Shown: piece by piece, positions 5,005 to 52,607 of the stretch
Layout: each line of letters opens with the position of its first letter
How positions within the stretch are numbered: the stretch's first letter is position 1
Assembly (NCBI RefSeq): GCF_023208195.1
Contig: NZ_CP060034.1
Location: 3,968,001-4,032,000, forward strand
DNA: 64,000 nt
Reading direction: 5' to 3'
From: Nocardioides sp. InS609-2
Lineage (GTDB): Bacteria > Actinomycetota > Actinomycetes > Propionibacteriales > Nocardioidaceae
Position numbers and translations under genes: made by a program
Notes under the pieces: generated by a model
The model's input: the letters and a program-made list of their open reading frames with translations, nothing else
Databases searched by the model: none
Told to the model about the DNA's origin: nothing

Positions 5005-6402
5005 ATGCGACCAGAATCCATGACCGTGTCCGCCGCGGACGATGACGCGGCCGCCGCGTTGACGACCGCCCCGGTGCGGCTGACGCCGGTCCTCGGGGTG
5101 ACCGCCGCGATCCTGCTGACGATCTCGTGCATCACTCCGGCGTCGAGCCTGTTCATCATCGTTCCCGAGCTCCTGGCAACCCAGGGCTCCGGAGTGGTGA
5201 TCGCGCTGGTCCTCGGCCTGGTCGTCTCGATCGCGGTCGGCGCCTGCTACGCCGAGCTGGGCACTCGGACGCCGAGCTCCGGTGGCGAGTACGCGATGGT
5301 CACCCACACGATCGGTCGCACCTTCGGCTGGCTGACGTTCGCCTTGACCGCGGCGCTCCTCGTGGTCATCCCGCCGGTCATCGCCCTCGGCACTGCCGAC
5401 TACCTGAGCTCCATCGTCGACCTCGACCGGTCCATCACCGGAGCGGTCGTGATGCTGCTCGCCACGTGCACCGCGGTGCTAGACGTGCGTGCGAACGCGC
5501 TCGTGACCAGCTGCTTCCTGGCCCTGGAGACCCTGACCGCGGGCGTAGTCGCCTTCCTCGGCTTCTCCCACTCCGAGCGCTCGGTCAGCACGCTGGTCCA
5601 CCCGCAGGCGCTCACCGACGGCGCCCTCTCGCCGTTCACGCTCGGCATCTTGGTGTCCGGCCTCGCGATCGCGATGTTCGTCGTCAACGGCTTCGGCACG
5701 GCGTCCTACCTCGCGGAGGAGATGCTGGAGCCCAGGCGCGACGTGGCGCGTGCCGTGTTCGGCTCGCTGTTCATCGCTGCGCTGGTGATCATCGTCCCGA
5801 CCGCCGCCGTCGTGGTGGGTGCTGGATCGCTCGAGGACCTCGGCGTCCTCACCTTTCCCGACTTCGTGGAGAGCTGGGCCGGTCCGAGGGTCGCCGCCGC
5901 GGTGAGCGTGGGCATCGCACTCGCGATCCTCAACGCCGTGATCGTGATGGTGCTCCAGAACGGCCGCGTGCTGTACGCCTCGGGCCGGGACCAGGCCTGG
6001 CCAGCAGTGGTCAACGCCGCACTGACCAAGCTCCACCCGCGATTCAACACACCCGTCGTCGCGACTCTCTCGGTTGCGATCCCGGGCGCCGTGCTGGCCT
6101 ACCTCGTCGACATCGAGTCGCTGCTGGGGGTCACGGCGGTGATGGTCGCGGCGGTCTACCTGCTGCTCGCGTTCGGGGCGCTCGCCGTCCGTCGTACTCC
6201 CCATGCGGGCTGGAAGATGCCGCTGTGGCCGCTCGCCCCGGTGGTGGTCATCGTCGCGCTCACCTACGCGCTCGCCCAGTCGGCCGCGCTCGACCTGGGC
6301 ATCACCGCCGGCGTCGTCGTCGCCGCGCTCGCCTACGAGGTGCTGTATCTCCGGCCACGCCGCGACACCCGCTTCCTCGTTGACGCGAGGGAGGACAGGT
6401 GA
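5005..6402 (+). CDS. APC-superfamily amino acid/polyamine permease
   Basis: A 465-residue inner-membrane permease of the amino acid-polyamine-organocation superfamily with about 12 membrane segments. The typical first helix (LTPVLGVTAAILLTISCITPASS) with its unwound small-residue stretch and the GGEYAMVTHTIGR loop after the second helix are present. GAAAGG lies before ATG 5005. It is the first gene of an operon for agmatine and putrescine breakdown, so it probably imports agmatine, putrescine or a related amine. Its stop overlaps the next start by four bases. The substrate is inferred from context only. Confidence 0.85.
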   Translation: MRPESMTVSAADDDAAAALTTAPVRLTPVLGVTAAILLTISCITPASSLFIIVPELLATQGSGVVIALVLGLVVSIAVGACYAELGTRTPSSGGEYAMVTHTIGRTFGWLTFALTAALLVVIPPVIALGTADYLSSIVDLDRSITGAVVMLLATCTAVLDVRANALVTSCFLALETLTAGVVAFLGFSHSERSVSTLVHPQALTDGALSPFTLGILVSGLAIAMFVVNGFGTASYLAEEMLEPRRDVARAVFGSLFIAALVIIVPTAAVVVGAGSLEDLGVLTFPDFVESWAGPRVAAAVSVGIALAILNAVIVMVLQNGRVLYASGRDQAWPAVVNAALTKLHPRFNTPVVATLSVAIPGAVLAYLVDIESLLGVTAVMVAAVYLLLAFGALAVRRTPHAGWKMPLWPLAPVVVIVALTYALAQSAALDLGITAGVVVAALAYEVLYLRPRRDTRFLVDAREDR

Positions 6403-8030
6403 CCACCGCTGACCTCGTCCTGACCGGCGGCAACGTGCACACGGTCGACCCGGCCCAGCCGCACGCCGACACGGTCGCCGTCCGTGACGGCCGCATCGTC
6501 TGGGTCGGCTACGCCGCGGAGGCGCCAGCCTGGGTGACCGGTGCCGCCGACGTCGTACGCCTCGATGGGCGCACCCTTCTCCCGGGGTTCGTCGACGCCC
6601 ACAACCACGTCCGCCTCGGCTCGGATCGCGAGTGTGTGCAGCTCGCCGGTGCCGACTCGGTCGAGGCCGTCGCGGCGCGTCTGCGGGACTGGGACCGCGC
6701 ACACCCCGGCGTCGGCTGGGTGGAGGCCGAGGGCTATGCCTATGTCGGCCTGGAGAACGGCGCACACCCGACCCGCCAGCAGCTCGACGCGATCATTCCC
6801 GACCGTCCCGTCGTGGTGTTCAGCTACGACGTGCACACCCTATGGCTGAACACCCTGGGTCTGACGGGACTCGGGATCGACGACGCGGACCAGCCCTTCG
6901 GCACCGCTGAGCTGGACGCCGAAGGGGTGCCCACAGGCTTCATCACCGACTTCGCGGTCAAGGGACTCTCGCGTGCGGGCGTGCGAGCACTGCGCGACCG
7001 CCGGCTGCCGTGGGCGAGCACCGATCGGCAGTACTCCCGCCTCCTGACGAGTCTCGACCACACTGTCGCCTGCGGCATCACGACCGTCGTCGAGCCTCAG
7101 AACTCGCCCGACGACATCGCGCTGTTCGAGCGCGCCCGTGCCGAGGGTCGGCTCGACCCGCGCGTGGTGCTGGCGATGTTCCATCCGCCGACCACGACGC
7201 CGGAGGAGCGCAGGGAGTTCGCCCGTCTCGCCTCGGCGTACGACGACGATCGGCTGCGGGTCGGGCCGCTCAAGCTCTACATCGACGACGTGGTCGAGCC
7301 GCACACCGCAGCGCTGCACGAGGACTACGCCAACGAGCCGGGTCATCGCGGGGCGACGTACTACGAGCCGACGGACTTCGCCGACCTGGTGGCAGACCTG
7401 GACCGCGACGGCTTCCAACTGTTCGTGCACGCGACCGGCGACCGAGGCATCACCACGGTGCTGGACGCCGTCGAGCACGCTCGTCTGGTTAACGGACCGC
7501 GCGACGCGCGCCACCAGATCGTGCACGTCGAGTGCCTCCGGCACGACGACCTGCCGCGGTTCGCCGAGCTTGGCGTGGTGGCCTGCATGCAGCCGCGACA
7601 CGCCAGCCCAGACCTGGCCGGGCCGGGGCACGCGTGGGCCGAGGCGGTGGGGGAGCGCCGCTGGCATCAGGCCTGGCCGCTGCGGTCGTTGCAGGAGCAC
7701 GGCGCGACGCTCGCGTTCTCCAGTGACTGGAACGTCGCCGAGATGGAGCCCATGGTCGGCATCTACAGCGCGGTGACCCGCTCGCCCCTGGCGGGTGGCG
7801 ACGCGTGGCAGCCGGAGGAGGCCGTCTCGGTCGCCGACGCCGTGCGCGGCTACACGATGGGCAGCGCCGTGGCCAACTTCTGCGAGCACGACCGGGGCTC
7901 GATCACCGTGGGCAAGCTCGCCGACATGGTCGTCCTGGACCAGGACCCGCACACCGTCGACTCGGCCAAGCTCGCAGACGTCGCCGTGCTGGAGACCTGG
8001 GTCGGCGGAGAACGGAAGTACGCTTCATGA
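6399..8030 (+). CDS. YtcJ-like metal-dependent amidohydrolase (amidohydrolase family 3)
   Basis: A 543-residue cytoplasmic amidohydrolase. The N-terminal beta-sandwich (DLVLTGGNVHTVD) leads to LLPGFVDAHNHVRLG, the H-x-H metal motif of the TIM barrel. Further signature regions are FVHATGDRGI and HQIVHVECLR (metal histidines) and FSSDWNVAEMEPM, which carries the catalytic aspartate. It ends with the usual return to the sandwich (KLADMVVLDQDPHTVD). The start is GTG inside a GTGA overlap with the permease stop, so the two are translationally coupled. Family members hydrolyse amides, including N-acyl amines. In this operon it might release amines from acylated or formylated polyamines, but the substrate is unknown. 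Confidence 0.8.
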   Translation: MTTADLVLTGGNVHTVDPAQPHADTVAVRDGRIVWVGYAAEAPAWVTGAADVVRLDGRTLLPGFVDAHNHVRLGSDRECVQLAGADSVEAVAARLRDWDRAHPGVGWVEAEGYAYVGLENGAHPTRQQLDAIIPDRPVVVFSYDVHTLWLNTLGLTGLGIDDADQPFGTAELDAEGVPTGFITDFAVKGLSRAGVRALRDRRLPWASTDRQYSRLLTSLDHTVACGITTVVEPQNSPDDIALFERARAEGRLDPRVVLAMFHPPTTTPEERREFARLASAYDDDRLRVGPLKLYIDDVVEPHTAALHEDYANEPGHRGATYYEPTDFADLVADLDRDGFQLFVHATGDRGITTVLDAVEHARLVNGPRDARHQIVHVECLRHDDLPRFAELGVVACMQPRHASPDLAGPGHAWAEAVGERRWHQAWPLRSLQEHGATLAFSSDWNVAEMEPMVGIYSAVTRSPLAGGDAWQPEEAVSVADAVRGYTMGSAVANFCEHDRGSITVGKLADMVVLDQDPHTVDSAKLADVAVLETWVGGERKYAS

Positions 8031-9061
8031 CGACCTGGACGATGCCGGCCGAGACCGACACGCACGACCGCACCTGGATGGCCTGGCCGTCCGGCAGCTA
8101 CACCCTCGGCGACACGCCCGCGGAGGCCGAGGAGGCCCGGCTGACCTGGGCCTCGGCGGCGAATGCCGTGGCCGAGTACGAGCCCCTCCACATGCTGGTG
8201 CCACCGTCGGAGATCGGTGAGGCCCGGCGCCGGCTCTCCGCGGCGGTAGTGCTCCACGAAGCTGCACTCGACGACGCGTGGTACCGGGACATCGGACCCA
8301 CGTTCGTGCTCGGCCCGGACGGCCTAGGCGCCGTCAACTGGGTCTTCAACGGCTGGGGGGCTCAGGACTGGGCCACCTGGGAGTACGACGCGGTGGCCAG
8401 TCTGGTCGCCATGGAGGCGAGCGGAGCGCACCGCATCGACTCGCCGATGGTCAACGAGGGCGGGGGCATCCAGACCGACGGGGCGGGCACCTTCCTGGTG
8501 ACCGAGACGGTCCAGCTCGACCCCGGGCGCAACCCCGGCTGGAGCCGCGAGCAGGTCGAGGCCGAGCTGGTCCGGACGGTCGGCGCACGCAAGGTGATCT
8601 GGCTGACGCGCGGCCTCACCCGGGACAGCGAGCGCTACGGCACCCGCGGACACGTCGACATCGTCGCCACCTTCAGCTCCCGCGGCCGGATCCTCCTGCA
8701 CGAGCAGCGCGACCAGGCGCACCCGGATGCCCTTGTCAGCCGCGAGCTCGGTGCGCTCCTTCGCGACGAGACCGACGCCGACGGCAAGCCGCTCGAGGTC
8801 GTCGCGCTGCCGGCCCCCACCGTGCTCCGCGACTCGAAGGGTTGGGTCGACTACAGCTACGTGAACCACTACGTGGCCAACGGCGCCGTCATCGCGTGCG
8901 CCTTCGACGACCCGGCCGACGACGAGGCCCGCGAGCTGCTCGCCGACGCGTATCCCGGACGCACCGTCGTCCAGCTCGATGCCCGGCCGCTGTTCGCCCG
9001 CGGCGGCGGCATCCACTGCATCACCCAACAGCAACCCGCACTGCCCAAGGAAACCTCATGA
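8027..9061 (+). CDS. aguA: Agmatine deiminase (agmatine iminohydrolase)
   Basis: A 344-residue member of the guanidino-group-modifying family that converts agmatine to N-carbamoylputrescine and ammonia. Characteristic pieces are MPAETDTHDRTWMAWP at the start, RDIGPTFVL, MVNEGGGIQTDG (substrate glutamate), YGTRGHVDIVATF (catalytic histidine) and the terminal GGGIHCITQQQP with nucleophile Cys331. ATG 8027 lies in an ATGA overlap with the amidohydrolase stop, which fixes the start. All recognisable catalytic residues are present, so it should be active. Its product is the normal substrate of the nitrilase-fold protein encoded next. Confidence 0.9.
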   Translation: MTTWTMPAETDTHDRTWMAWPSGSYTLGDTPAEAEEARLTWASAANAVAEYEPLHMLVPPSEIGEARRRLSAAVVLHEAALDDAWYRDIGPTFVLGPDGLGAVNWVFNGWGAQDWATWEYDAVASLVAMEASGAHRIDSPMVNEGGGIQTDGAGTFLVTETVQLDPGRNPGWSREQVEAELVRTVGARKVIWLTRGLTRDSERYGTRGHVDIVATFSSRGRILLHEQRDQAHPDALVSRELGALLRDETDADGKPLEVVALPAPTVLRDSKGWVDYSYVNHYVANGAVIACAFDDPADDEARELLADAYPGRTVVQLDARPLFARGGGIHCITQQQPALPKETS

Positions 9062-9993
9062 AACTCATTGCCCCACCCGCCCAGCCGTCCCTGTCCCGTG
9101 TCGGCGAGACGGACGACCGACAGGTGACCGTGGCTCTGGTCCAGATGCACTGGGCCGCCGAACCCGAGGAGCACCTCGCCACCCTGGCCGAGGGCATCGC
9201 AACCGCGGCCGGGGCCGGTGCGTCGATCGTGTTCCTTCCGGAGCTCACCCTGTCGCGCTACCCGGCGGACACCATGCCCGAGGGGGCGCCGGCCGACATC
9301 GCCGAGCCGCTTGCGGACGGTCCGACGTACACCTTCGCCGCGGCGGCGGCTGCCGCGCACGGAGTCTTCGTGCACGCGTCCCTCTACGAGAAGGCGGAGG
9401 CCGACGACGGACTCGGCTTCAACACCGCCATCCTCGTCGCCCCAGACGGGAGCATCGTGGCTCGCACGCGCAAGCTGCACATCCCGGTGACAGCGGGCTA
9501 CTACGAGGACCAGTACTTCCGGCCGGGTCCCGCCGGCTCGCCGTACCCGGTCCACGCCGTCGACCTGCCCGGAGCGCCTCGCGTCGGTCTGCCGACCTGG
9601 GACCAGTGGTTCCCGGAGCTGGCGCGGGCGTACTCGCTCGCCGACGCGGAGATCCTTGCCTACCCGACGGCGATCGGCTCCGAACCGGACCACCCCGACT
9701 TCGACACCCAGCCGCTGTGGCAGAGCGTGATCGTGGGCAACGGCATCGCCAATGGGCTCTTCATGGTGGTTCCCAACCGCTGGGGCAACGAGGGACTCGT
9801 CGAGTTCTACGGCTCGTCCTTCATCAGCGACCCGTACGGCCGTGTCCTCGCCCAGGCTGGGCGCGCGGGCGTCGCCGTGCTGGTGGCGACCCTCGACCTG
9901 GCGCAGCGGCGTGACTGGCTCGACCTCTTCCCATTCCTGCAAACGCGACGTCCGGACACCTACGGGTGCCTCGTCGAGAAGGAGACCAAATGA
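9058..9993 (+). CDS. N-carbamoylputrescine amidase-like nitrilase-fold protein lacking the catalytic cysteine
   Basis: A 311-residue carbon-nitrogen hydrolase closest in pattern to N-carbamoylputrescine amidase (AguB), which makes putrescine, CO2 and ammonia. Glu62 (FLPELTLS) and Lys139 (RKLHIPVTAGYYEDQYF) of the Glu-Lys-Cys triad are present. The nucleophile normally sits directly before WDQWFPE; here the sequence is RVGLPT-WDQWFPE, with Thr180 in front of Trp181 and no cysteine. Downstream conservation is otherwise good (YPTAIGSEP, VVPNRWGNEG, YGSSF). The start is an ATGA overlap with aguA, preceded by AAGGA. By family knowledge it should not hydrolyse its substrate; substitution, one-codon deletion or sequence error are the options. 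Confidence 0.85.
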   Translation: MKLIAPPAQPSLSRVGETDDRQVTVALVQMHWAAEPEEHLATLAEGIATAAGAGASIVFLPELTLSRYPADTMPEGAPADIAEPLADGPTYTFAAAAAAAHGVFVHASLYEKAEADDGLGFNTAILVAPDGSIVARTRKLHIPVTAGYYEDQYFRPGPAGSPYPVHAVDLPGAPRVGLPTWDQWFPELARAYSLADAEILAYPTAIGSEPDHPDFDTQPLWQSVIVGNGIANGLFMVVPNRWGNEGLVEFYGSSFISDPYGRVLAQAGRAGVAVLVATLDLAQRRDWLDLFPFLQTRRPDTYGCLVEKETK

Positions 9994-11348
9994 TGTCCAC
10001 CCATGACACCGTCATCGTCGGCGGAGGAGTCACCGGCCTGGTGGCGGCCTGGCGCCTGGCCGAGGCCGGACAGGACGTCGTGGTGCTCGAGGCGCGTGAG
10101 CGCGTCGGCGGGCGGCTGCGCAGCGAGGAGCACGACGGATCCCTCTTCGAGATCGGGGGCCAGTGGGTCTCACCCGACCAGGACGCCCTCGTGGGGCTCC
10201 TCGACGAGCTGGGCCTGGAGACCTACCCGCGCTTTCGCGAGGGCGAGTCGCTGTACGTCGCCGGCGACGGTGCGGTGCGGCGCTTCACCGGCGAGGACCT
10301 GCCCGTCGGCCCGGACACGGCGGCTGCCATCGAACGGCTCACCAAGACCCTCGACGACCTCACCGCCGAGATCGACCCCGACCGCCCCTGGGACCACCCG
10401 GAGGCCGAGCGGCTCGATCACATGACGTTCCAGCAGTGGCTCGAGGAGGAGTGCGACGATGTCGAGGCGCGTGACAACATCGCGCTCTTCATCGGCCCGG
10501 CCATGCTCACCAAGCCCGCCTGGTCGTTCTCGGCCCTGCAGGCGCTGTTGATGGCGGCCAGCGCCGGGTCGTTCCTGCACCTCGTCGACGCCGACTTCAT
10601 CCTCGACCGGCGGGTCGAGGGCGGACTGGCCTCGGTCGCGCACGAGCTGACCCGCCGGCTCGGTGACCGGGTGCGGCTCTCGCAGGACGTCACGGCGGTC
10701 GAGTACGACGACGAGGGCGCGACCGTGGTCGTGAAGCACGAGCGGCTGCGCGCACGTCGCGTGATCGTGGCCGTGCCGCCGCCACTGGTGCGTCGGATCC
10801 GGTTCACCCCGGAGCTGCCCGCCGAGCACCGACACGCCCGCGAGCACCAGTCCTTCGGGCTGGTGATCAAGGTGCAGGCGGAGTACCCCACACCGTTCTG
10901 GCGGGAGGAGGGGCTCAGTGGCACCGGCTTCGGTCCCTACCAGGTCGTGCACGAGGTCTACGACAACACACCAGCTGGCTCCACGGTGGGGCATCTGGTC
11001 GGCTTCGTCTCCGACGAGGCCGCGGACCGGCTCGGCACCCTCGGGGTCGAGGAGCGCCGTGAGCAGGTGCTGGCCTCGCTGACGGCGTACTTCGGTGATG
11101 CCGCCCGCAGCCCCACGACGTACGTCGAGAGCGACTGGCAGCACCAGGAGCTGACCGGCGGCGCCTACGGCACCAGCTTCGACGTCGGTGGACTCACGCG
11201 GTACGGCCGGGTGCTTCGTCAGCCGGTCGGGCCGATCGAGTTCGGCACGAGCGACGTGTCCGGCCTCGGCTTCCAGCACGTCGACGGCGCCGTCCGCGTC
11301 GGCACCGAGCTCGCCCAGCGAGTCCTCACACCAGGAGCAGCATCATGA
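9990..11348 (+). CDS. Flavin monoamine oxidase, putative putrescine oxidase
   Basis: A 452-residue FAD-dependent amine oxidase. The Rossmann motif is VIVGGGVTGLVAAWRLAEAG, followed by RERVGGRLRS and GGQWVSPDQ, the amine-oxidase signature that holds the flavin. The C-terminal FAD-contact region reads GLGFQHVDGAVRVGTEL. In actinobacteria such enzymes oxidise putrescine to 4-aminobutanal with release of ammonia and H2O2. AAGGAG at 9979-9984 selects ATG 9990 (or 9993) over an upstream GTG, and the start overlaps the preceding stop. Its place between the amidase-like gene and an aminoaldehyde dehydrogenase supports putrescine as substrate. It would generate peroxide in the cytoplasm. Confidence 0.83.
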   Translation: MMSTHDTVIVGGGVTGLVAAWRLAEAGQDVVVLEARERVGGRLRSEEHDGSLFEIGGQWVSPDQDALVGLLDELGLETYPRFREGESLYVAGDGAVRRFTGEDLPVGPDTAAAIERLTKTLDDLTAEIDPDRPWDHPEAERLDHMTFQQWLEEECDDVEARDNIALFIGPAMLTKPAWSFSALQALLMAASAGSFLHLVDADFILDRRVEGGLASVAHELTRRLGDRVRLSQDVTAVEYDDEGATVVVKHERLRARRVIVAVPPPLVRRIRFTPELPAEHRHAREHQSFGLVIKVQAEYPTPFWREEGLSGTGFGPYQVVHEVYDNTPAGSTVGHLVGFVSDEAADRLGTLGVEERREQVLASLTAYFGDAARSPTTYVESDWQHQELTGGAYGTSFDVGGLTRYGRVLRQPVGPIEFGTSDVSGLGFQHVDGAVRVGTELAQRVLTPGAAS

Positions 11349-12763
11349 TCAAGAACATCATCGACGGCGAGCTTCGCGCGGCGCACGACGGCAGGGTCAG
11401 CGACGTCGTCGACCCCTCGACCGGCAAGTCCTACGACATGGCCGCGCTCTCCGGCGCGCCCGACGTGGATGCCGCGTACGCCGCCGCCACGCGAGCCTTC
11501 CGCGTCTGGCGGCGTACGACGCCGGCCGAGCGGCAGCATGCGCTGCTTGCCCTTGCGGACGCGCTGGCGGCGCGTTCCGAGGAGCTGGTCGCGGCCGAGG
11601 TCGAGAACACCGGCAAGCCGGTCGCGCTCGCGCGTTCCGAGGAGATCGCGGTCGGCATCGACCACCTGCGCTTCTTCGCCGGCGCGGCCAGGACGCTCGA
11701 AGGAGCCTCGGCAGGCGAGTACCTGGCCGGGCACACGTCCTACGTGCGTCGTGAGCCGGTCGGGGTGGTCGGCCAGGTGGCCCCGTGGAACTACCCGTTC
11801 ATGATGGCCATCTGGAAGATCGCGCCGGCCCTCGCGGCGGGCAACACGGTCGTCCTCAAGCCGTCGGACACGACCCCGGTCACGGCGTCACTGTTGGGCG
11901 AGATCGCTCTCGGCGTGCTTCCCCCAGGTGTCCTCAACGTGGTGTGCGGGGACCGGGACACCGGGCGGCTCGTGGTATCGCACCCGGACGCGGCGATGGT
12001 CTCGATCACCGGGTCGACGGCCGCAGGCAAGCAGGTGGCCGTGGCAGCGGCCGACCACGTGACACGGGTCCACCTCGAGCTCGGTGGAAAGGCGCCGGCG
12101 ATCGTGTTCGCGGACGCGGACCTCCCGGCAGCCGTGGAGGGGATCGTCATGGCCGCCTTCTTCAACGGCGGCCAGGACTGCACGGCCGCGACCCGGGTGC
12201 TGGTGCAGGACGGGGCCGCCGATCGGTTCCAGACCCTCCTGGTGGAAGCCGTCTCGCAGGTGCGCACCGGTCCGCCGTCGGACGAGGAGGCGCTGTACGG
12301 TCCGCTCAACAACGCCAACCAGCTCGCGCATGTGTCCGCCGTCGTGGAGTCACTGCCGGAGCACGCGACCGTGCTCACGGGTGGGCACCGGATGGGCACC
12401 GAAGGCTACTTCTATGCGCCGACCGTGGTGTCAGGCGTACGCCAGCAGGACGCGATCGTGCAGCAGGAGACCTTCGGTCCCGTGGTGACCCTGCAGACCT
12501 TCGGATCGGAGAGCGAGGCGATCGAGCTGGCCAACGATGTCGACCTTGGCCTGGCCTCGAGCGTCTGGACCTCCGACCACGGCACCGCCCATCGCTGCTC
12601 GGTCGATCTCGACTTCGGGTGCGTGTGGGTCAACACCCACATTCCGCTGGTGGCCGAGATGCCGCACGGCGGCTTCAAGCAGAGCGGCTACGGCAAGGAC
12701 CTCTCCCGGTACGGCCTGGAGGACTACACACGGGTGAAGCACGTGATGCACTCGCACGGCTGA
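11345..12763 (+). CDS. Aldehyde dehydrogenase, putative gamma-aminobutyraldehyde dehydrogenase
   Basis: A 472-residue NAD(P)-dependent aldehyde dehydrogenase of the aminoaldehyde/betaine-aldehyde type. It has the oxyanion asparagine in VAPWNYPFMM, the cofactor lysine in VVLKPSDTTP, the general base glutamate in LELGGKAP and nucleophile Cys279 in GGQDCTAATR. It would oxidise 4-aminobutanal from the upstream amine oxidase to GABA. ATG 11345 overlaps the oxidase stop (ATGA), and it is the last gene of the six-gene operon. The gene ends five bases from the convergent TetR gene, with no clear terminator hairpin between them. Confidence 0.85.
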   Translation: MIKNIIDGELRAAHDGRVSDVVDPSTGKSYDMAALSGAPDVDAAYAAATRAFRVWRRTTPAERQHALLALADALAARSEELVAAEVENTGKPVALARSEEIAVGIDHLRFFAGAARTLEGASAGEYLAGHTSYVRREPVGVVGQVAPWNYPFMMAIWKIAPALAAGNTVVLKPSDTTPVTASLLGEIALGVLPPGVLNVVCGDRDTGRLVVSHPDAAMVSITGSTAAGKQVAVAAADHVTRVHLELGGKAPAIVFADADLPAAVEGIVMAAFFNGGQDCTAATRVLVQDGAADRFQTLLVEAVSQVRTGPPSDEEALYGPLNNANQLAHVSAVVESLPEHATVLTGGHRMGTEGYFYAPTVVSGVRQQDAIVQQETFGPVVTLQTFGSESEAIELANDVDLGLASSVWTSDHGTAHRCSVDLDFGCVWVNTHIPLVAEMPHGGFKQSGYGKDLSRYGLEDYTRVKHVMHSHG

Positions 12764-12768
12764 AGCCC

Positions 12769-13332
12769 TCAGCGGCCCAGCGCCGCTACGGCGTCGGCCA
12801 GGTCGACCACCGCCCGCTTCCGGGCGGTGGTCCCGACGTCGAGCGGCGCGTCGAGCTGGAAGCCGAGGAACGCCGCGTCGATGACGGTCGCGACCCGGTT
12901 CGCCAGTGGGCGGGCGACCCCTGACCTCGTCAGGTGCGTGACGAAGGACCGCAGCCAGTGCTCGTTGGCCTCACGCACGACAGAGGCATACGGCTCGCGG
13001 CCCAGCAGGCCGAGCGCAGCTGCCTCGACGTACAGACGCGTGCACGACTCGAGCTCGGGCGAGTTCACCACCGACCAGAGATCGTGCACGGCCGCGCGCA
13101 GGTCGGCCGACGGTGCGAGTGCCGCGATGCCAGCGACGGCGCGGTCGTTCGACTCACGCAGGACAGCGGCGACGAGGTTGTCCTTGGTGCCGAAGTGATA
13201 GAGCAGCATGCGGTCGCTGGTGCCGAGCGCTGTGGCCAGGGGTCTGAGGCTCAGCCCGATCAGGCCGTGGCCCAAGGTGTAGTTCGTCGCCTCGACGGTC
13301 CACACCTCTCGGCGTACGGGGTCCTTGGCCAC
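12769..13332 (-). CDS. TetR-family repressor of the SMR efflux gene
   Basis: A 187-residue TetR-type regulator. The HTH region reads LSLRPLATALGTSDRMLLYHFGTKDNLV, followed by an all-helical effector domain. The start is GTG 13332, nine bases from the first of two TGTAGC-N4-GCTACA palindromes, so it probably represses its own promoter as well as the divergent SMR gene. The ligand is probably a cationic or lipophilic compound exported by the SMR protein, as for QacR-like systems (inference). It converges on the polyamine operon but has no evident role in it. Confidence 0.85.
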   Translation of the reverse strand: MAKDPVRREVWTVEATNYTLGHGLIGLSLRPLATALGTSDRMLLYHFGTKDNLVAAVLRESNDRAVAGIAALAPSADLRAAVHDLWSVVNSPELESCTRLYVEAAALGLLGREPYASVVREANEHWLRSFVTHLTRSGVARPLANRVATVIDAAFLGFQLDAPLDVGTTARKRAVVDLADAVAALGR

Positions 13333-51911: not shown

Positions 51912-52607
51912 TCAGGACGGCAGCACCGGCACACCGGTCGGGGCTCCCGACACCCGCTCGCACGCGCCGGTGCCGGCGTCACATCGCACGAGTGCCTCGA
52001 CACCGGCGTCCCGGTCGTCGAAACCGTCGAACGGCAACCTCGTCTGCAGGATGACCGCCTGGGGCGACTCCCACGTCGCCAGTCCGAAGCGCAGCTCGGT
52101 CGGCAGGTCCAGCCGCCGGCGGTCGCCGGTGCCGACGTCCTGCACCCAGAGGTTGTCCAGCGCCGCGTTGACGAGGGAGCGTCCGTCGGCCTGTCTCGGG
52201 GATAGACGTACGCCGACCCGTCCGGCGACCACTGCCCGAGCTGGTCGGTCGGGACCTTGCCCACGCGACGTACGACGCCTGCCTCCGACACCGTGGCGAG
52301 CACGCCGGCGAGCCGGGTGATCGCCCGGATCCGCCCCTGCCACATGACGCCGCCCGGCCAGTTCTGCAGCGAGAGCTGACGCGACTCGAGAGCGAGTCGC
52401 ACGGCGTCGTTCTCACCGGGACGCCAAGCGAACGCTGATGACGGACCGGTTGACCAGATCACCCAACCGTCGGTCGTCACCCCGTGCACAACGAGCTCGC
52501 CGCCCTGGTCACAGCACGTGACCTGCACCGGCACCTCGACCTCGCCGGTCTGGTGCTGCTCGAGCAGCTCGCGCCGCTCGTGCGGGTCACCACGTCCGAC
52601 GAGGTCT
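51912..52607 (-). pseudogene. Beta-propeller (WD40/TolB-like) gene, frameshifted and 5'-truncated
   Basis: The first frame reads TTDGWVIWSTGPSSAFAW, SLQNWPGGVMWQGRIRAITR and QLGQWSPDGSAYVYP, repeats of strand-turn type seen in TolB/WD40-like propellers. After about 52200 the similarity continues in another frame (NLWVQDVGTGDRRRLDLPTE, EALVRCDAGTGACERVSGAP). There is no convincing start codon or signal peptide before the first blade; the upstream bases end at the hydroxyacid dehydrogenase stop. Both a frameshift and loss of the 5' end are likely. Function unknown. Confidence 0.6.

Follow-up and report, generated by a model that had tools for sequence, protein, structure and literature searches.

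The window analysed here, a stretch of 64,000 nt, belongs to a single-contig genome of 4.52 Mb that is 98.98% complete. Positions 5005–12763 of the window comprise six co-directed genes with short overlaps, followed by a TetR-type gene on the opposite strand (Table 1). The functions of these genes, taken in order, fit the conversion of agmatine via N-carbamoylputrescine, putrescine and 4-aminobutanal to GABA. The aguA gene is joined to the gene of a CN-hydrolase (nitrilase) homologue by an ATGA overlap. The start of aguA at 8027, which itself forms an ATGA overlap with the preceding gene, fits better than the start at 8021 used in the family scans.

Table 1 Features of the agmatine gene cluster in the window and of the second agmatine module in the same genome
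Feature	Position	Strand	Evidence or remark
Amino acid/polyamine-type permease (AA_permease_2)	5005–6402	+	PF13520, 105.5 bits
YtcJ-like amidohydrolase (Amidohydro_3)	6399–8030	+	PF07969, 271.8 bits
aguA, agmatine deiminase	8027–9061	+	PF04371, 341.1 bits
AguB-like CN-hydrolase, 311 aa, nucleophile Cys deleted	9058–9993	+	PF00795, 154.6 bits; TIGR03381, 197.9 bits
Site of the missing codon, ACC/TGG (Thr180/Trp181)	9595–9600	+	single CTG, as against CTGCTG in G210, G027 and the own paralogue
FAD amine oxidase, putrescine-oxidase-like by context	9990–11348	+	PF01593, 245.8 bits; ATGATG junction with the nitrilase stop
Aminobutyraldehyde dehydrogenase	11345–12763	+	NF010000, 676.8 bits (cut-off of 615 exceeded)
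TetR-type regulator	12769–13332	-	PF00440, 25 bits (cut-off 24)
Second module (L094, 8066–12208): cytosine/purine-type permease, TetR, Cys-bearing AguB-like nitrilase, AguA	C1, about 2474065–2478207		own genome
Cys-bearing paralogue of the window nitrilase	C1, 2475141–2476037	-	66% identical to the window copy; motif PTCWDEWFPE

An earlier note on this DNA had described the agmatine operon as complete apart from a nitrilase-fold protein devoid of its nucleophilic cysteine. The genes neighbouring the Cys-less nitrilase are indeed open reading frames, and AguA retains 62 of the 62 residues that are invariant among 81 relatives, including C333 (numbered from the start at 8021; five aguA rows with a stop symbol inside the aligned stretch were retained in this test). 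The remaining genes depart from columns that are invariant among their relatives, namely at 6 of 178 columns in the amine oxidase and at 6 of 200 in the aldehyde dehydrogenase (11 relatives each), at 5 of 180 in the permease (nine relatives) and at 24 of 331 in the amidohydrolase (four relatives), the relatives in each case being few and the columns weakly constrained. Of these neighbouring genes, AguA is thus the one for which the invariant-column test demonstrates intactness.

Family assignment of the nitrilase homologue

The protein encoded at 9058–9993 matches the CN_hydrolase profile PF00795 over residues 24–287, far above the cut-off of 23.2 bits. The cut-off of 410.25 of the AguB profile TIGR03381 is reached neither by this protein nor by its Cys-bearing paralogue (180.9 bits), and since both score below it, we use the name AguB-like for them. 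The TIGR03381 model may not cover this mostly actinobacterial group, of which two members were scored, both far below the cut-off. Support for AguB activity of the group comes from gene context rather than from the profile, because 72 of the 80 relatives, the best 80 among 290, have aguA adjacent to the nitrilase gene, on the same strand and with a gap of <300 bases. Among the other eight, aguA is divergent and further off in two, and in six none lies within the stretch examined. As noted earlier, Glu62 and Lys139 are seen in the translated reading frame, but the Glu-Lys-Cys triad is incomplete owing to the deletion of its cysteine. The window protein is a CN-hydrolase homologue failing the triad, for which active N-carbamoylputrescine amidase is not an appropriate annotation.

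The best solved relative is the N-carbamoylputrescine amidohydrolase of Medicago truncatula, MtCPA (PDB 5h8i and 5h8k; E values of 4.8e-38 and 7.9e-38 over residues 16–307), whose nucleophile is Cys158 according to passages of the MtCPA report (PMC4812014). Alignment by phmmer places Glu48, Lys121, Glu132, Trp159, Trp162 and Glu187 of the plant enzyme opposite Glu62, Lys139, Glu150, Trp181, Trp184 and Glu209 of the window protein, each of which is conserved in 93 of 93 relatives. Hence the second glutamate (Glu132) and the substrate glutamate (Glu187) of MtCPA both have their counterparts; however, the window protein is short by one residue in the turn that bears Cys158 in the plant enzyme.

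The nitrilases of similarly arranged Nocardioides operons (genomes G210 and G027, N. gansuensis, N. sp. Root240 and others) belong to the same clade as the window protein, with which they share 72–83% of their residues, but the cysteine is kept in all of them.

Deletion of the cysteine codon

The motif of the window nitrilase reads LPT-WDQWFPE (sequence ...RVGLPTWDQWFPEL...), the TGG codon of Trp181 at 9598–9600 directly following that of Thr180. No cysteine precedes WDQWFPE, as had been pointed out before; the protein has a single cysteine, at position 304 and close to its C-terminal end. The protein alignment comprised 100 sequences including that of the window, which after removal of six identical duplicates left 94 distinct proteins (80 relatives plus homologues from the genus). 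Thr180 aligns with a threonine found in 93 of the 93 distinct relatives, the next column is cysteine in all 93, and a gap in the cysteine column occurs in the window copy alone. The change is therefore a deletion of one residue, i.e. of one codon, and not, as the earlier note had described it, the presence of Thr180 where the family has its cysteine; a Cys-to-Thr substitution is ruled out by the alignment of Thr180 with the threonine of the 93 relatives.

In the DNA of the nearest relative, G210 (83% identical at the protein level), the site reads CCG ACC TGC TGG GAC CAG, as against CCG ACC TGG GAC CAG in the window. The sequence ACCTGCTGG, which contains CTGCTG, is the commonest form of the site, being present in 55 of 90 Cys-bearing rows (five rows duplicate named records). 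Presumably one CTG was lost from this two-unit repeat, as replication slippage would yield. When phmmer aligns the protein with the plant enzyme alone, Thr180 lies opposite Cys158 and the gap falls one column earlier; the placement of the gap thus differs between the family and the pairwise alignments, and which residue comes to lie at the tip of the shortened turn depends on the alignment chosen.

The Cys-less form is confined to this genome in all samples searched. Among 215 genomes of the genus, 19 contain homologues at E <= 1e-60, amounting to 20 genes, and the window copy is the only one without the cysteine; this genome is also the only one of the 215 with two copies at that threshold. 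Class-wide motif searches with exact patterns, by which variant motifs are missed, found the Cys-less motif in one of 394 genomes, namely this one, and the Cys-bearing motif in 38, including the second copy of this genome. All of the 80 relatives drawn from the genome collection, the best 80 among 290, have the cysteine. The question raised in the earlier note, whether the TWDQW motif or a one-codon loss is conserved, is thus answered in the negative for the genomes searched, and a conserved Cys-less subfamily was seen neither in the genus (215 genomes) or class (394 genomes) samples nor among the best 80 of 290 relatives.

Constraint on the gene and the second agmatine module

Apart from the cysteine, the gene has no damage at invariant sites, the window nitrilase keeping 72 of the 73 residues that are invariant in 93 relatives. 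Its pairwise dN/dS against G210 is 0.136, the lowest of five comparable genes (0.150–0.226 for the others), albeit a rough value, dS also being high (0.788); against L095, the nitrilase gene has a dN/dS of 0.241 and aguA of 0.242. Over 305 sites, the window protein and that of G210 show 14 unique amino-acid changes each. Neither the invariant columns, nor dN/dS, nor the unique changes thus gave any sign of acceleration or of further damage in the nitrilase gene.

Neutral decay was simulated 1000 times for each of two base compositions, the criterion being that all 72 invariant residues remain unchanged; the branch was set to half of the pairwise NG86 dS of 0.79, a rough figure. When 10% of the branch was neutral, none of the 1000 runs kept all 72 residues under either base composition, while 3.3% and 2.4% of the runs did so when 5% was neutral, and 53% and 46% when 1% was neutral. 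Free decay could hence occupy no more than about 5% of the branch that separates the window copy from G210, and a long-standing neutral pseudogene is ruled out by the simulation. The retention of the 72 residues, the missing acceleration and a neutral phase of at most about 5% together leave a very recent deletion, a protein that is still under constraint, or an error in the sequence. A very recent event would leave no relaxation visible, but so, equally, would an error in sequencing or a function that has been retained.

The genome harbors two PF04371 (agmatine deiminase) genes, one beside each of the two AguB-like genes, and the AguA of the second module likewise has its catalytic cysteine. 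Like the window copy, the paralogue is located next to aguA, but it retains its cysteine, has the gene order nit-aguA, and is accompanied by TetR and cytosine/purine-type permease genes. The two copies also fall into different clades: in the tree, the window copy and that of G210 lie within a Nocardioidaceae clade of 11 rows, whereas the paralogue has a Nonomuraea sequence as its sister, in a different clade to which four further members of the genus belong. Two further CN-hydrolases encoded in the genome share 29% and 32% identity with the window protein. No match to the arginase/agmatinase family (PF00491) was found in the genome. Its two matches to putrescine carbamoyltransferase (TIGR04384) are both below the cut-off, and since 14 of 14 control genomes match as well, they are uninformative.

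The earlier note had considered the operon to be possibly blocked at the opening of N-carbamoylputrescine. Because the genome encodes, at another locus, a Cys-bearing AguB-like paralogue beside a second AguA, such a blockage is unlikely for the cell, and the agmatine pathway as a whole is probably not blocked; the second enzyme could run the step in trans. The presence of two copies would therefore explain why the cell tolerates the loss, and would also leave the pathway a way to continue.

Origin and consequences of the deletion

As judged from sequence comparisons, the window gene is probably a recently inactivated copy of a redundant AguB-type amidase, of which a second, Cys-bearing copy was kept. 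The AguB-type N-carbamoylputrescine amidase of the operon would recently have lost its nucleophile by an in-frame deletion of three bases, of the type expected from slippage at CTGCTG. Such a deletion preserves the reading frame and so leaves intact the stop/start overlaps linking aguA, the nitrilase gene, the amine oxidase gene and the aldehyde dehydrogenase gene. The protein should still fold, though without a Glu-Lys-Cys triad, and hydrolysis of N-carbamoylputrescine at a useful rate is not expected from it; the step would be supplied in trans by the Cys-bearing AguB-like enzyme encoded beside the second aguA. The gene then presents a clean case of an enzyme that lacks exactly its nucleophile through one codon, with its other invariant residues unchanged. 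If confirmed in living isolates, the deletion would represent the first step of a gene loss, or the birth of a pseudoenzyme, caught in the act, and would show that homology-based annotation could call a dead enzyme active. If it were a sequencing error, its value would be limited to that of a caution.

An assembly or sequencing error, by which three bases of the CTG repeat went missing from a gene that really contains the cysteine codon, is the main rival of a recent inactivation, although we consider it unlikely. In line with an error, the gene shows no other damage (low dN/dS, no acceleration, and 72 of 73 invariant residues kept), and the deletion is known from one isolate of the species. 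A codon-model scan for frame switches, a home-made and crude procedure, covered 483,501 bases of this genome and returned seven places, three of which look like ordinary gene overlaps; the remaining four at most, one of which lies in the window near 52193, are suspicious and stay unexplained, so that indel errors appear to be rare, yet not absent. On the other hand, the genome is assembled into a single contig of high completeness with few frameshift-like places, that an error of three bases should strike one particular codon is unlikely from the outset, and the base runs at the site are never longer than three.

Rather improbable, in our view, is a retained pseudoenzyme, that is, a protein without hydrolytic activity that selection maintains for its binding of N-carbamoylputrescine or putrescine, or for its assembly with the active paralogue. 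The retention of all mapped active-site residues of the plant enzyme except the cysteine would agree with such a role, as would a constraint on the nitrilase that is no weaker than that on the neighbouring genes. It is conceivable that the protein binds ligand or enters mixed oligomers in view of MtCPA, for which passages of the report state that the C158S variant retained the binding properties of residue 158 and that the active-site entrance is walled partly by neighbouring subunits (PMC4812014). However, the Cys-less form occurs in no other sampled genome and shows no sign of maintenance across speciation, and a very recent loss accounts for the identical facts. Its more specific form, a selected N-carbamoylputrescine- or putrescine-binding subunit or sensor which tunes the paralogue or the operon, and which a single codon deletion created at one stroke in a two-module genome, seems decidedly improbable. 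The suggestion in the earlier note of a non-catalytic role for the protein is possible in this general sense. Our literature search returned nothing on pseudoenzymes of the nitrilase superfamily, and nothing that joined N-carbamoylputrescine, catalytic cysteine and nitrilase.

It is very improbable that the protein is an altered catalyst that employs Thr180 at the apex of the nucleophile elbow, or that has recruited Cys304. Such a role for Thr180 would be in line with the pairwise alignment to MtCPA, but in the family alignment Thr180 is the ordinary neighbour of the nucleophile, and even a serine in place of Cys158 of MtCPA "strongly diminished its reactivity", as stated in the same passages (PMC4812014). 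Cys304 is located beyond the last invariant residue, Asp300, which makes the relocated cysteine envisaged earlier improbable, too.

A takeover of the reaction by the YtcJ-like amidohydrolase, which would have freed the nitrilase from its function and which had likewise been proposed before, is scarcely credible. Although its gene belongs to one series of overlapping genes with that of the nitrilase, and was not found in the 15-kb stretch of G210 (L113), where the nitrilase bears its cysteine, four relatives (L095, L097, L114 and L010; 68–77% identity) have the amidohydrolase gene close to a Cys-bearing nitrilase, so that the amidohydrolase is not peculiar to the Cys-less case; moreover, the CN-hydrolase paralogue is the simpler substitute. 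An amidase-type alternative enzyme, AguY, is described in passages of PMC12283126.

Elsewhere in the window, at about 51912–52480 on the minus strand, the codon signal changes its frame near position 52193 within a coding stretch, with no stop nearby; this place may correspond to a frameshifted gene or to an assembly indel.
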